DNA of 36,853 bases from Lonsdalea quercina subsp. quercina (lineage in GTDB: Bacteria > Pseudomonadota > Gammaproteobacteria > Enterobacterales > Enterobacteriaceae), in NCBI RefSeq assembly GCF_000688695.1, contig NZ_JIBQ01000002.1, forward strand, positions 90,208 through 127,060, written 5' to 3'. The notes below the pieces were generated by a model. That model did no database searches. It saw only the letters and a list, made by a program, of their open reading frames with translations, and was not told the origin of the DNA. The position numbers were made by a program, and so were the translations under genes. Of this stretch, positions 7,427-15,035 are shown in pieces. Every line of letters begins with the position of its first letter. Position 1 is the stretch's first letter.

Positions 7427-7512
7427 TGCTCGCGGCATAAGCCGTTTCACCGCTCATCATGACCCAGACGGCGCATGCCGCCGTCTCAACACTGAAAAAG
7501 GATGCTCATACC

Positions 7513-8157
7513 ATGACTCAGCCCTTATTACAGATTGCGCTGGACTCTACCGATCTTCCCACCGCCGTCGATCTGGCCGCTCGCGTGGCGGAGTATGTCG
7601 ACGTCATTGAAGTCGGCACCATACTGGCCTTCGCCGAAGGAATGAACGCCGTCCGCACGCTGCGCCAGCAGTATCCCGACCATATTTTGGTCTGCGATAT
7701 GAAAACCACGGACGGCGGCGCTATTCTGGCAAAAATGGCCTTTGCCGCAGGCGCGGACTGGATCACGGTGTCCGCTGCGGCCCATATTGCAACGATCACC
7801 GCCTGTAAAAGCATCGCGGACGACTACCACAGAGAAATTCAGATGGAGCTCTACGGCCACTGGACGTGGGAAGACGCGCAGGCCTGGCGAAAACTGGGCA
7901 TCACGCAGGCGATCTACCACCGTTCGCGAGACGCGGAGCTGGCCGGAGTCGGCTGGACGCCTGAAGATATCCAACGCATGCATACCCTGTCGGAGATGGG
8001 ATTTGAGGTGTCGATCACCGGCGGTATCGTGCCTGAGGCGTTGCAGCATTTCCGAGGCATTAACGCCAAAACGTTTATCGCCGGGCGGGCGTTAGCCGGT
8101 GAAAACGGAAGCGTCATCGCCGACGCCTTGCGCCAGGAAATCGCCCGCTACTGGTAA
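7513..8157 (+). CDS. ulaD: 3-keto-L-gulonate-6-phosphate decarboxylase UlaD
   Basis: UlaD decarboxylates 3-keto-L-gulonate 6-phosphate to L-xylulose 5-phosphate. It belongs to the orotidine-5'-phosphate decarboxylase suprafamily (beta/alpha barrel). Visible signatures are LQIALDSTD, DVIEVGTIL, the Asp/Lys/Asp cluster in CDMKTTDGG, GHWTWEDAQ, YHRSRDAE and VSITGGIVP, with the phosphate-binding TFIAGRALAG. The frame opens at 7459, but ATG 7513 (214 residues, E. coli 216) begins with the family N-terminus MTQPLLQIALD and has AAGGA upstream. The 86-bp gap from ulaF is wider than the other spacings in this arm. It is the last gene of the arm. Confidence 0.92.
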   Translation: MTQPLLQIALDSTDLPTAVDLAARVAEYVDVIEVGTILAFAEGMNAVRTLRQQYPDHILVCDMKTTDGGAILAKMAFAAGADWITVSAAAHIATITACKSIADDYHREIQMELYGHWTWEDAQAWRKLGITQAIYHRSRDAELAGVGWTPEDIQRMHTLSEMGFEVSITGGIVPEALQHFRGINAKTFIAGRALAGENGSVIADALRQEIARYW

Positions 8158-8253: not shown

Positions 8254-8493
8254 ACCGCACCGTTTTGGATATCTCGATGTTTATCATCCAGATAACTCGC
8301 CGTGTCCGTCTTTTTATGCATCGCCCGGTCAACTTCCCTTAATTCTTACCTGAATATTGCCGATAAATTGCCAAGTGAACGCAGTTCATCAGCTTACGAG
8401 CTATACATTTATTAGAGGGCGTCACGATCTTATCGCCCCGCTTCCGGCGGGTGAACGCGTCCATTTTTTCCATCATCCAGGAAATTGCTAACC

Positions 8494-9261
8494 ATGACCT
8501 CCCTATCGCCCCCTTTTATGTCGTCGCGCTGTGCTCACTGCGCGGACAGCCATAATCTGGGCCTCGACTTCACGATGGCGTTTCAGCCTATCGTAGACTG
8601 CGTGACCAAAAGCGTATTTGGCTACGAAGCCTTGGTCCGAGGCTGCAATAACGAGTCTGCCTTCAGCATTATTTCGCAAATCAGCAACGACAAGCGCTAC
8701 GGCTTCGACCAGCTGTGCCGAATCAAGGCTATCGCGCTTGCAGCACGACTGAAGCTGTCCGGCATGCTAAGCATTAATTTTCTACCCAACGCGATTTATC
8801 GTCCTGAACGTTGCATTCGCTCCACGCTGGAAGCGGCCAAAAAGTACCAGTTTCCGATAAAAAACATCATGTTCGAGTTCACCGAGAACGAGCAGGCCCA
8901 TGACAGTAAGCGCATACAGACGATCATAGAATGCTACAAAAAGTTGGGCTTCAAAACGGCGATCGATGACTTCGGGTCGGGTTATTCCGGGCTGAGTCTG
9001 CTGGCGGATTTTCAAACCGATATCGTCAAGCTGGACATGGCGCTGATCCGCAACATCGATCAGGACAAAACACGCCAGACGATCGTCACTCACAATGTCA
9101 ACATGTTGAAATCGCTCAACATTAAGGTACTGGGAGAGGGCATTGAATCAGAAAAGGAATATCATTTTCTTAAAGGGATCGGGATTGATTTCGCTCAGGG
9201 ATATTACTTCGCCAGACCCGGCTTTGAGTCGCTGCCGGAGGTCGATACCACTCTTATTTAG
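8494..9261 (+). CDS. Stand-alone EAL-domain cyclic-di-GMP phosphodiesterase
   Basis: A 255-residue protein that is almost entirely one EAL domain and should linearise cyclic di-GMP in the cytoplasm. Key catalytic elements are present: YEALVRG (EAL at 45-47), NFLPNA, FEFTENE, the DDFGSGYSGLS loop, KLDMALI, GEGIES and AQGYYFARP. An active enzyme is therefore expected. The short N-terminus carries a Cys-X-X-Cys pair (Cys13, Cys16) just before the first barrel strand, which could bind metal or sense redox state. I chose ATG 8494, with AGGA 11 bases upstream, over a TTG three codons earlier. There is no transmembrane segment or GGDEF domain. Confidence 0.88.
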   Translation: MTSLSPPFMSSRCAHCADSHNLGLDFTMAFQPIVDCVTKSVFGYEALVRGCNNESAFSIISQISNDKRYGFDQLCRIKAIALAARLKLSGMLSINFLPNAIYRPERCIRSTLEAAKKYQFPIKNIMFEFTENEQAHDSKRIQTIIECYKKLGFKTAIDDFGSGYSGLSLLADFQTDIVKLDMALIRNIDQDKTRQTIVTHNVNMLKSLNIKVLGEGIESEKEYHFLKGIGIDFAQGYYFARPGFESLPEVDTTLI

Positions 9262-9426: not shown

Positions 9427-9647
9427 TTTGAAGGGCAGCAAGTACGACGGGCTTTTTAATGGTATCGCTTACCTTTCGTCCGCCTCCCCCCTACTTTCCT
9501 CTTGAAAGACGCGCTCAACCGACAAGACAAAACGTCGCCATCATCGGGTAAAAAGACCTAAAACACACACAGTTACCTCGAATATGTATACAAATAGCCC
9601 ACGCTCGCCATATGCAATTTAGAACAAGTTGCCCCCCAATCGGCCGT

Positions 9648-9653
9648 TATACT
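9648..9653 (+). promoter_or_regulatory. Possible -10 element for the acyl carrier protein gene
   Basis: TATACT lies 31 bp upstream of the start codon at 9685. No good -35 hexamer is found at the expected distance, which would fit an activator-dependent promoter. Weak evidence. Confidence 0.3.
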
Positions 9654-9684: not shown

Positions 9685-9987
9685 ATGAAGCACTCAGAAT
9701 CTGGGCATCGCCGTGACGATGCAACACAATTACTCGTACGCGAGCTGTTGAAAGCCATTGGTATCGATCAGGGACGTATCGACGCCATATTCCAGGGCGC
9801 GCCGATGTATGCCCATGACGGCCTGCTGGATTCCGTCAATCTCATCAGCCTGATTGCCGTTCTCAGCGACCACTATGAAGCCCATGGAAAGCTGACGGGC
9901 GACCTGTTCGATCTCATGGATGAAAACGTTTTCGACGCATTTCATACCCTCGATAGTCTGACGCATTTTCTGCACGAAAAAACCTGA
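9685..9987 (+). CDS. Acyl carrier protein-like protein
   Basis: A 100-residue, acidic, helical protein with the carrier-protein core AHDGLLDSVNLISLIAVL. The Ser of the LDS motif is in the position that receives 4'-phosphopantetheine. The following segments (LTGDLFDLMDENVFDAF, then a last helix LDSLTHFLHE) fit helices III and IV of an ACP or of a DltC-like carrier. It has GGAG 8 bases before the ATG. A KAS III-like gene starts 47 bp downstream, and an Sfp-type transferase lies 1.5 kb away, so all parts needed to load and use this carrier sit together. It is not the housekeeping AcpP. The acyl group it carries is unknown. Confidence 0.75.
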   Translation: MKHSESGHRRDDATQLLVRELLKAIGIDQGRIDAIFQGAPMYAHDGLLDSVNLISLIAVLSDHYEAHGKLTGDLFDLMDENVFDAFHTLDSLTHFLHEKT

Positions 9988-10034
9988 CCTGTTTGTTGAT
10001 ACCCGAATCCCACGGCGATCAGGACGGAGGATGC

Positions 10035-10970
10035 ATGATACACATCAATACCTTAGCCACCTGGGTTCCACCGGCTCGCCTCAGCGCTGAGGACATCATT
10101 ATCCAAACGGGCTATAGCCCCCGCGAAGCCAACACGTTCTGCCAGCTGTTCGGCTTTCGCCGCATCGCCGCGCTGGAGGCCTCCGTCTCTCTTTATGGCG
10201 TTTTTTATCAACTTCTTAGCCAATTGATGCAGCAGTCCTCCGGACCTGACGTTCCCATCGACGCACTCATTTATGTGCATGGTATGCCGGCGCTGTATCG
10301 CGAACAGCCGGCGTGGCTCGCGCGGCTGAAACAGAGTCATCCGTTCGTCAGCGACTCAGCGGGCTGCTACGAACTGGACCAACAGCACTGCGCTACTTTG
10401 TTCTGGGCGCTGGAGCTCGCCCATCGGCTACTGGAAGACAAGCAGGCAAAACGCGTCGCCATTATCGCCGGCGAAACGTTGTCGCCTTTAGGGGCCTCGC
10501 GGCGATACGTGCCGGGCTACACGCTGATTGGAGATGCATTCGCCGCGCTGCTACTGGAGCGTGAAGGCGCTGGTTTACGGTTGGGAAAACCCTTTCTGGG
10601 CCAGCGAATGGAATTTTATGATGGACGGAAGAGCGGCCGGGAAGCGAAAACAGCGTTTTATCAGGCCCACGACGACATGGTGAGGGAGGCTCTGGCAGGC
10701 GCCCAGGCGGGCGATCCCGACAGCCTGTCGCTGCTGCCCCACAACATCAACCGTATCAGCTGGCGTCGCTATATGCGCCGTTACCCGCTGCCGTGCGAAG
10801 CCATCTCGCTCGGCCTGTTGCCGGATATCGGCCACTGCTGCACCGTGGACCCCCTCCTGCTGCTGCCTGCCGCGCTGCCCGCCGTCCGCAACGGGCAACC
10901 GCACGTGATGCTGTCCATCGGGCTGGGCGCCGCCTATGGCAGTTGCTCCGTTTACTACCGCGCGCAATGA
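10035..10970 (+). CDS. 3-oxoacyl-ACP synthase III-like acyltransferase with Cys-His-His active site
   Basis: A 311-residue thiolase-fold protein of the KAS III type. ELDQQHCATLFWALELAHRL aligns with the KAS III nucleophile helix, giving Cys119. LLPHNINRI matches the HQAN-R motif, giving His236. Where KAS III has the third residue in GNTSAAS, this protein has DIGHCCTVDP, so His267 replaces Asn. The change implies altered chemistry, such as acyl transfer or condensation without the normal malonyl decarboxylation geometry; PqsC is a known relative that works with a Cys-His pair. I chose ATG 10035, preceded by GGAGG, over an upstream in-frame codon at 9993. It is coupled to the carrier gene upstream. 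Substrate unknown. Confidence 0.8.
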   Translation: MIHINTLATWVPPARLSAEDIIIQTGYSPREANTFCQLFGFRRIAALEASVSLYGVFYQLLSQLMQQSSGPDVPIDALIYVHGMPALYREQPAWLARLKQSHPFVSDSAGCYELDQQHCATLFWALELAHRLLEDKQAKRVAIIAGETLSPLGASRRYVPGYTLIGDAFAALLLEREGAGLRLGKPFLGQRMEFYDGRKSGREAKTAFYQAHDDMVREALAGAQAGDPDSLSLLPHNINRISWRRYMRRYPLPCEAISLGLLPDIGHCCTVDPLLLLPAALPAVRNGQPHVMLSIGLGAAYGSCSVYYRAQ

Positions 10971-11053
10971 TTGCGCCGATACTTCGCGCCACCCTGCACG
11001 GCGTTTATCGGGCACACTGCAATTATTCTTCACTCTCACAATTTCAGACAACA

Positions 11054-11084
11054 ATGCCCGCGGGCACCGGGCATAATCCTTTTC
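11054..11084 (+). terminator. Terminator-like hairpin after the KAS III-like gene
   Basis: ATGCCCG (11054-11060) pairs with CGGGCAT (11068-11074) around a 7-nt loop, followed by AATCCTTTT. It would close the carrier/KAS unit. I see no gene in the rest of the 541-bp gap (10971-11511). Confidence 0.45.
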
Positions 11085-11511
11085 AGGAAGCGTTTTCGCT
11101 GGCGTAAGCAGGCGGAAATATACAAGGATGTAATAACGTCACGGTCAGAGCGCAGGATTGCGCCATTCGAACAGGGATGAAGACGGATCGTCGCGTTATC
11201 AGCATGGATGTTGTTTGTCTGTCCGTACCAGTTATTTTCATGCTCCAGCGGGATGACGAGAGATGAAAATCAGGATGGAAACGCTTTCTTTCTCTGCTGA
11301 CACTCTGCGTGCATACCACTCATCGTGGTCTGTGCGTCGATACCGGAGAAAACCACGGATGCTACGCCCTTTAAGGATCGGGATATCGGCAAAGGGCGCC
11401 TTCTTCTCTTTCTCGTCGGTGGCGGGAAACATCACGCAAACATTGGCTTACTCTCTCTGCTCACACCGCTGAACGGCACGCGACAAGCGCCGCCCTGAGC
11501 GTTAGCCGACG

Positions 11512-12318
11512 TTAACCCAGCCAGTCCTTTAGCGCGTCCCACTCAGTCAGGGTGGTAAACCGCCAGCTCAACGTAGTCTCGTTGGCCGATAAAATGCAGC
11601 AGTTGAGCGCCAGGCTCGCTTCGTCACACCAGACTTCCTCCATCTGCGCGTTCGCGGGGCGAGAGTCATCCAGCACCTGAATCCGCCCGTTTTCCCGCGT
11701 CAGACAGCTGAACGAGTCCAACGGCTTGCTCAGGCCAAGTCCCAACGCCTTCAGATAGGCTTCTTTGCGAGTCCATATCCGAATAAAAGCCTGTGCATAT
11801 GCCTCTTCATCGCAAAACTGATCCAGCCAGCACGCTTCATCAGGATGAAAAAAGCGCTTCGCTACGCCGCGTTTATGCTCGACACGCCCGCGATTTCCCT
11901 CGACATCGACCCCTACCGCGTCACCCTGTGCGATGGCGAACGCAAACGCAGCCTCGGTGTGGGAGAGGTTGAAGTGAAGCTGTGGATATCGGGGCAAGAA
12001 CGGCTTACCTAACGGGGTGCGGGCAAACGCCAGCTCGTGCGGCAACGCGCGGCACAGCGGCGCCAGCAGGCAGCGTAGAATGCCCTCAGCCAGTTTGCTG
12101 GCGGTGAGCGTATCGTGCGGCGCCATCCGGCAGGCCAATCGCGCCTTGGCAGATGTTTCCGGTCGATCCAGCGTCTCCCGGTGGACCAAAACACACTGTG
12201 GGCCCGCCAGTTTTCGCGCGCTATGCTCAGCGCTACCACAAAAATCCAACGTGTTTTCCTGGCTGATAATCACGCTCTGCGCCCGATTTATCGCGCTTTC
12301 CCTATTCACCTTGTCCAT
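11512..12318 (-). CDS. Sfp-type 4'-phosphopantetheinyl transferase
   Basis: This enzyme would convert apo carrier proteins to the holo form by moving phosphopantetheine from CoA to a serine. At 268 residues it has all the family motifs: TPLGKPFL (about 101-108), LHFNLSHTE (114-122), the Mg-binding VGVDVEGN (135-142; Asp138, Glu140), AKRFFHPDE, and WTRKEAYLKALGLG (182-195; Lys185, Glu186). The length is typical of the broad-specificity Sfp/EntD class rather than of AcpS (about 126 aa). AAGGAT lies 5 bases before the ATG. It is convergent to the carrier/KAS pair and divergent from an AraC-type regulator. It may serve the nearby carrier, or a carrier made elsewhere. Confidence 0.9.
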   Translation of the reverse strand: MDKVNRESAINRAQSVIISQENTLDFCGSAEHSARKLAGPQCVLVHRETLDRPETSAKARLACRMAPHDTLTASKLAEGILRCLLAPLCRALPHELAFARTPLGKPFLPRYPQLHFNLSHTEAAFAFAIAQGDAVGVDVEGNRGRVEHKRGVAKRFFHPDEACWLDQFCDEEAYAQAFIRIWTRKEAYLKALGLGLSKPLDSFSCLTRENGRIQVLDDSRPANAQMEEVWCDEASLALNCCILSANETTLSWRFTTLTEWDALKDWLG

Positions 12319-12663
12319 TTTTCATCCTTGCGAGTCATGTCGGCTGAAAGCGATCGGTTCGAGATCACGTACGTCTGATGGAAACGCATACATAGCAACG
12401 CTGCATCGCGGGCGTTTCTCCTCCCTTGATCCCAGGTCGATTCGGATATTTTTGCGGTATGACCTTTAGAAACAAGTCTTAACGAATTCCTGTTATTAAA
12501 ATCCCGATCACGCTTAAAACACTGACCATTTTCGAGACGAATAATCCCAATAACGAAATGTCGCCATCCCAAAAATGGAATGCTGAGTGGAAAAACCGTT
12601 ACTTATCCCGCTGAAAAAGGCCATTCCAAATATGGCACACAATTTGCGTGAGTCACCCTGTCA
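12319..12663. promoter_or_regulatory. Divergent PPTase / AraC-type regulator control region
   Basis: This AT-rich gap of 345 bp holds two near-identical decamers, CCAAAAATGG (12569-12578) and CCAAATATGG (12626-12635), whose starts are 57 bp apart. The palindrome CTGTCA-A-TGACAG (12658-12670) runs over the first possible start codon of the regulator. These are candidate regulator binding sites. No firm promoter could be assigned. Confidence 0.3.
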
Positions 12664-13320
12664 ATGACAGCAATGACAATAATTAACAACCCAATACCAA
12701 CGCCGTTTTCAGCATTTTTATTAACCGCTCCAGGCACGGTAAATACATTTTTGGATGACACCATGAATCTACATAATGCCTACCCCCACACCTTGGATAA
12801 TGAAAGCTTCAACCATAATCTTATCCAGGATATGTATCGTCGCCACCCCAACCTCAAAAAGACCTTGGAAAACAATAATAAAGCAACCAGGCTGGTAGGG
12901 ATCATCGACTATATTATTGAGAATATCGGCGATAACATCACGCTGGAACAACTCGAAACCGTGAGTGGCAAATCGAAGTTCGATATCTGCCGATTATTTA
13001 ATCAGGTCTATAATATTACGCCCATGCGATGGATCTGGCGCGTACGCGTCACGCTGGCGAGAGAGATTATTCATATTTCGCCTAACTGGTCTCTGACCGA
13101 TATTTGCTATGCGTGTGGTTTCTCCTCGTTGCCTCATTTTTCCCGCTGCTTTACGAAAACGTATAATATTCCGCCGCTGAAATACCGGAAAACCGTCTCG
13201 TCCGACCGCGAGCCGCCCCGTTTTATTAGCAATATGAGCTTCGATATTATTTTCGGAAAACAACGTCATCTGTTTTCTCGTCATGTATTGCTGGATAACA
13301 TCCACAATTTGTCTAATTAA
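12664..13320 (+). CDS. AraC-family transcriptional regulator
   Basis: The protein (218 residues from the first ATG) has a two-helix-turn-helix AraC domain from about residue 80 to 180: IIDYIIENIGDNITLEQLE, FDICRLFNQVYNITPMRW, then LTDICYACGFSSLPHFSRCF and TYNIPPLKYRK. The short, AT-rich N-terminal part has no recognisable ligand domain. The start is uncertain. ATG 12664 has no good ribosome binding site and overlaps a palindrome. ATG 12763 has a weak GGAT and would give about 185 residues. Codon usage is visibly more AT-rich than in the flanking genes, which suggests later acquisition. It is divergent from the PPTase gene, so it may control that gene and the carrier/KAS pair; this is inferred from position only. 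Confidence 0.8.
   Translation: MTAMTIINNPIPTPFSAFLLTAPGTVNTFLDDTMNLHNAYPHTLDNESFNHNLIQDMYRRHPNLKKTLENNNKATRLVGIIDYIIENIGDNITLEQLETVSGKSKFDICRLFNQVYNITPMRWIWRVRVTLAREIIHISPNWSLTDICYACGFSSLPHFSRCFTKTYNIPPLKYRKTVSSDREPPRFISNMSFDIIFGKQRHLFSRHVLLDNIHNLSN

Positions 13321-13661: not shown

Positions 13662-15035
<1,374 letters not shown>

Follow-up and report, generated by a model that had tools for sequence, protein, structure and literature searches.

Vfm is a quorum-sensing system whose signals have never been isolated and which has been regarded as Dickeya-specific (PMC9306890, PMC7912708); it is described as conserved in that genus and not widespread (PMC7912708). The published operons are vfmY-K-W, vfmAZBCD, vfmFGHIJ, and vfmE, and VfmE has been reported to bind all of their promoters (PMC7912708). 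In D. dadantii, VfmH carries GAFTDA at positions 231-236 and VfmE carries RWIWR at positions 89-93 (PMC10714721, PMC9045272). Transcription of vfmE in that species needs VfmH, and a VfmH-sigma-54 interaction was not detected (PMC10714721). Here we analyzed a 36,853 bp stretch of the Lonsdalea quercina subsp. quercina genome (contig NZ_JIBQ01000002.1, C2; hereafter the window), in which neighboring genes encode a carrier protein, a KAS III-like enzyme, an Sfp-type phosphopantetheinyl transferase (PPTase), and an AraC-family regulator. Sequence comparison makes it nearly certain that these four genes are an internally deleted remnant of a Dickeya/Musicola-type vfm cluster. The remnant is probably still in use as one half of a two-locus Vfm system, the other half being a divergent cluster on contig C17 of the same genome.

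Genomes of genera g98 and g15, which we call Dickeya-type and Musicola-type (the genus names are inferred), contain the same genes within a cluster of ~27 kb. This cluster encodes a sigma-54 response regulator with GAFTDA at 231-236 and an AraC protein with RWIWR at 89-93, and its operons agree with those published. Based on the matching motif positions and operons, the cluster was identified as vfm and the window proteins were named VfmY, VfmW, VfmJ, and VfmE, the letters Y and J being assigned from operon order. VfmF is an ABC ATPase by Pfam, encoded by a 235-aa open reading frame (ORF). The genes and flanks of the remnant are as follows:

7459-8157, forward strand: ulaD, the left-hand neighbor of the ancestral site; it adjoins vfmY in a Musicola-like genome.
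9685-9987, forward strand: vfmY, by synteny the opening gene of the vfm biosynthesis operon; it encodes a carrier protein whose LLDSVNL motif contains Ser50.
10035-10970, forward strand: vfmW, which closes that operon and encodes a KAS III-like acyltransferase with Cys119, His236, and His267.
11512-12318, reverse strand: vfmJ, Sfp-type PPTase with the GVDVE and WTRKEAYLK motifs intact in the alignment.
12763-13320, forward strand: vfmE, AraC-family activator of 185 aa with the cyclic di-GMP (c-di-GMP) motif RWIWR at 89-93.
13662-15014, reverse strand: argG, right flank, adjacent to vfm in the Dickeya-type, Musicola-type, and g58 genomes alike.

Genes in the Musicola-like genome are arranged as ulaD - vfmY ... 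vfmW - vfmX - vfmJ(-) ... vfmE(+) ... argG(-), and the window has ulaD - EAL gene - vfmY - vfmW - vfmJ(-) - vfmE(+) - argG(-). Order, strand, and both flanks (the ula operon and argG) thus agree with the full cluster, indicating that the window holds the site where vfm ancestrally lay, now reduced by large internal deletions. Synteny and orthology show that this locus has lost the bulk of its biosynthesis operon together with vfmX, vfmF-I, and vfmAZBCD and retains four genes only, most other counterparts being found on C17; faint traces of vfmX coding sequence persist between vfmW and vfmJ, to about 11430. The remnant shares with the Dickeya vfm cluster (vfmA-Z; PMC9306890, PMC7912708) orthologs of vfmY, vfmW, vfmJ, and vfmE in the same order and orientation, and with the Dickeya-type and Musicola-type genomes the argG neighbor and a vfmE with RWIWR and a conserved promoter. 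It differs from the Dickeya cluster in that most genes are deleted and the system is split over two loci. The initial annotation had taken the set for a self-standing unit; vfm synteny identifies it instead as the decayed remainder of a known larger cluster.

The four ORFs that had been annotated at 9685-13320 were present as described and intact, and Pfam supported the typing of three of the products. VfmY gave no Pfam match and was assigned as a carrier because it is the ortholog of the carrier that heads the vfm biosynthesis operon, its identity being 58% to the Dickeya-type ortholog and 42% to the C17 paralog; the DS-motif attachment residue Ser50 is intact and conserved in all VfmY aligned. 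VfmJ matched ACPS (PF01648, E 5e-19), contained the GxDxE and WxxKEAxxK motifs, and was 46-50% identical to orthologs in Dickeya-type and g58 genomes. VfmE matched HTH_18 (E 1e-17) and was 83-86% identical to Dickeya-type, Musicola-type, and g58 orthologs; its ORF spans 12664-13320, and the true start is most likely the ATG at 12763. The vfmW ORF ends at 10970, with an ATG at 10035 preceded by a good ribosome site and a mechanical start, TTG, at 9993. VfmW was 58% identical to its Dickeya-type ortholog and matched ACP_syn_III (E 2e-6, 27.9 bits vs. a curated cut-off of 24), with the C-terminal model below its cut-off; similarity to solved enzymes was weak (best 8vdb, E 3e-5). An AlphaFold model of VfmW built from a five-sequence alignment had a mean predicted local distance difference test score of 52.5 and was left out of fold searches. 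VfmW thus shows family-level similarity to the KAS III family (FabH and relatives, PF08545/PF08541) and keeps the catalytic Cys119 and His236, but His267 replaces the canonical Asn (GHC) in all VfmW/VfmS aligned, and we therefore describe it as KAS III-like rather than as a canonical condensing enzyme. As the initial annotation had stated, the window proteins scanned yielded no adenylation, dehydratase, or thioesterase gene. An Rfam search of the window returned no RNA family, and the set had no match in the E. coli genomes searched.

The C17 cluster, at about 71-99 kb of that contig, is near-complete and vfm-like: most vfm genes have a counterpart in it, with identities of roughly 30-65%, and it also contains a P450 gene and an HlyD-type gene. 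It includes genes for signal synthesis, export, and sensing, and no PPTase or VfmE was found in it. Three PPTases are encoded in the genome, namely AcpS, VfmJ, and an EntD-like protein, the last away from any vfm gene. The proposal that the remnant would supply the activator and the PPTase in trans to the C17 cluster is well supported and would probably explain why the locus was retained, and the earlier suggestion that the four products serve a pathway encoded elsewhere holds up. Adjoining the vfm-like cluster, at about 106.7-117.5 kb of C17 (L046), two ORFs of 1409 and 1635 aa with adenylation-type similarity suggest a neighboring nonribosomal peptide cluster.

Different genera share a conserved region of ~240 bp ahead of vfmE, which contains two predicted elements:

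12566-12580, forward strand: dyad ATCCCA-N3-ATGGAA, predicted VfmH site upstream of vfmE, conserved across genera.
12633-12647, forward strand: predicted sigma-54 (-24/-12) promoter of vfmE, TGGCACACAATTTGC, a consensus match.

The dyad lies ~53 bases upstream of the sigma-54 site, and a sigma-54 match was detected upstream of vfmE in all seven genera with this gene. The combined dyad and sigma-54 pattern occurred once per genome in five Lonsdalea genomes, at vfmE, and a stricter version occurred once in 6/10 other genomes tested. The sole VfmH-type protein in Lonsdalea is encoded on C17 and has the same DNA-recognition segment (GLSRSAFYRRL) as Dickeya-type VfmH; the identity of other sigma-54 activators does not exceed about 44%. 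GAFTDA in place of the usual GAFTGA was invariant in all aligned VfmH (five genera), despite the sigma-54 consensus upstream of vfmE.

A separate box, CAATTTCARWCAAA, followed by a -10 sequence is common to the Dickeya-type vfmY and vfmX promoters and to the divergent vfmY'/vfmA' promoter on C17. Because VfmE reportedly binds every vfm operon promoter (PMC7912708), we read this as a putative VfmE box. Two copies remain at the window locus:

9615-9649, forward strand: vfmY promoter with a degenerate putative VfmE box (CAATTTAGAACAAG) and a TATACT -10, aligned with the Dickeya-type and Musicola-type vfmY promoters.
11039-11077, forward strand: surviving vfmX promoter with a putative VfmE box, CAATTTCAGACAAC, and a CATAAT -10.

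When a slightly wider box was searched against five Lonsdalea genomes, 7/8 exact genome-wide matches fell at the C17 vfmY'/vfmA' promoter, as judged by position and sequence, and a reversed control pattern gave no match in the same genomes. All seven matches (7/7) in four Dickeya-type genomes were at or near the vfm locus. Extra matches in g58 genomes lacked a convincing promoter or gene start and appear to be chance hits.

The remnant was common to five Lonsdalea species, in one of which (G292) vfmY-vfmW is not intact: a further deletion fuses the end of vfmW to a broken vfmY, and the reading frames of vfmJ and vfmE remain open. The latter two thus form the common core, and at least one lineage can dispense with vfmY-vfmW. 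Nor are the four genes always found together outside Lonsdalea, genus g58 keeping only vfmF, vfmJ, and vfmE at the site. Homology of the spacer between vfmY and vfmW across four Lonsdalea species shows that the deletion is older than their divergence. Since the deletion, the ratio of nonsynonymous to synonymous substitution rates (dN/dS) of vfmW has been 0.15 (bootstrap 0.10-0.22), compared with 0.14 for both Dickeya-type VfmW and C17 VfmW'; the values for vfmY, vfmJ, and vfmE were 0.13-0.20, 0.25, and 0.02, respectively. The remnant is under purifying selection. In the family, vfmE and vfmJ occurred in an identical set of genomes (15/392), 14 of which also encoded a VfmW-type protein.

Taken together, we propose a circuit in which the C17 sensor VfmI' and the sigma-54 activator VfmH' would switch on the remnant vfmE through the dyad and the sigma-54 promoter. 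VfmE would then activate the C17 vfmY' and vfmA' operons through the CAATTTCARWCAAA box, and VfmJ would phosphopantetheinylate the C17 carriers. The vfmY-vfmW pair is probably functional, as purifying selection suggests, and might, more speculatively, contribute a further carrier/acyltransferase step to the signal of this system. Several points weigh against this two-locus system. The box consensus was written after both promoter sets had been seen, and the assignment of the box to VfmE is putative; the co-occurrence of vfmE and vfmJ partly reflects shared ancestry; the EntD-type PPTase in the genome is a possible alternative to VfmJ for the C17 carriers; and vfmY-vfmW duplicate C17 genes and were lost in one Lonsdalea species.

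The last of these points also bears on a reading in which the locus is slowly decaying, so that importance is now confined to vfmE, acting on other targets as a regulator of virulence that responds to c-di-GMP, and perhaps to vfmJ; vfmY-vfmW would be disappearing, and no special link to C17 would exist. The deletion in one species is what this reading expects, vfmE is by far the most constrained gene, and Dickeya VfmE also acts on cell-wall-degrading enzyme genes (PMC7912708). However, vfmW is as constrained as in intact clusters and vfmY has a dN/dS in a similar range, and the box and sigma-54 sites connect vfmE to C17; we consider slow decay unlikely. A hybrid signal, in which native vfm has been reduced to a master regulator and PPTase driving the C17 cluster and vfmY-vfmW add a Dickeya-type acyl-transfer step, so that one quorum-sensing system is being replaced, is a doubtful possibility. 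The initial annotation had proposed a minimal acyl-transfer module independent of vfm, in which VfmJ activates VfmY, VfmW loads or transfers an acyl group to a small acceptor, and VfmE regulates. Intact catalytic residues throughout and purifying selection would suit such a module, but the gene set is a vfm subset by order and place, left over at the ula-argG site, and vfmJ and vfmE persist without vfmY-vfmW, making this reading very improbable. Finally, a recently acquired island carrying a new acyl-transfer system, as hinted by the low GC content of the AraC gene (44% vs. 55%), is ruled out by the same site and flanks in other genera, the presence of the set in all five Lonsdalea species, and the equally low GC content of vfmE orthologs elsewhere (39-45%), which makes low GC a property of an ancestral gene and no pointer to recent acquisition.

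A comparable split was observed in genus g58. Two genomes (G057 and G184) retain vfmE (83%), vfmF (84%), and vfmJ (50%) at argG and have a related vfm-like cluster elsewhere that, as in Lonsdalea, is without vfmJ and vfmE. The arrangement differs from that of Lonsdalea in that vfmF is kept, vfmY-vfmW are absent at argG, and the neighbors of the second cluster are different. The argG tree is compatible with either one or two origins of the split. In a further genome of the family (G119), a locus at about 2129510-2139008 of its contig C1 (L093) carries counterparts of vfmE, an HlyD-type gene, vfmF-J, and vfmX, and no VfmW- or VfmM-type protein was found anywhere in the genome; this locus may possibly be a sensing-only vfm that listens without making a signal. 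Outside the family, a contig of Xenophilus sp. AP218F (L034) encodes VfmW-like (43%), carrier (32%), VfmS-like, and VfmM-like (51%) proteins.

Two further features lie upstream of vfmY in the window. A gene for an EAL-domain protein, at 8485-9261, separates ulaD from vfmY in each of the five Lonsdalea species and does not do so in the Musicola-like genome; the nearest named model for the protein is RimA, below cut-off, and the gene has a neighbor encoding a regulator that binds c-di-GMP. Intergenic sequence of ~100 bp at 9330-9433 matches two places on the flanks of the vfm region in a Dickeya-type genome at 79-81% identity, has a weaker second copy in its own genome, and resembles a dispersed repeat.

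The open-access papers searched contained no description of vfm in Lonsdalea, most co-mentions apparently being reference-list entries; the presence of vfm in Lonsdalea is thus only provisionally new. These results extend the range of vfm-type clusters to the tree-pathogen genus Lonsdalea and to further genera, and describe a system split over two loci with vfmE and vfmJ always kept. The conserved sigma-54 promoter and dyad of vfmE bear on whether VfmH works through sigma-54 (PMC10714721), and the compact candidate VfmE box is directly testable.

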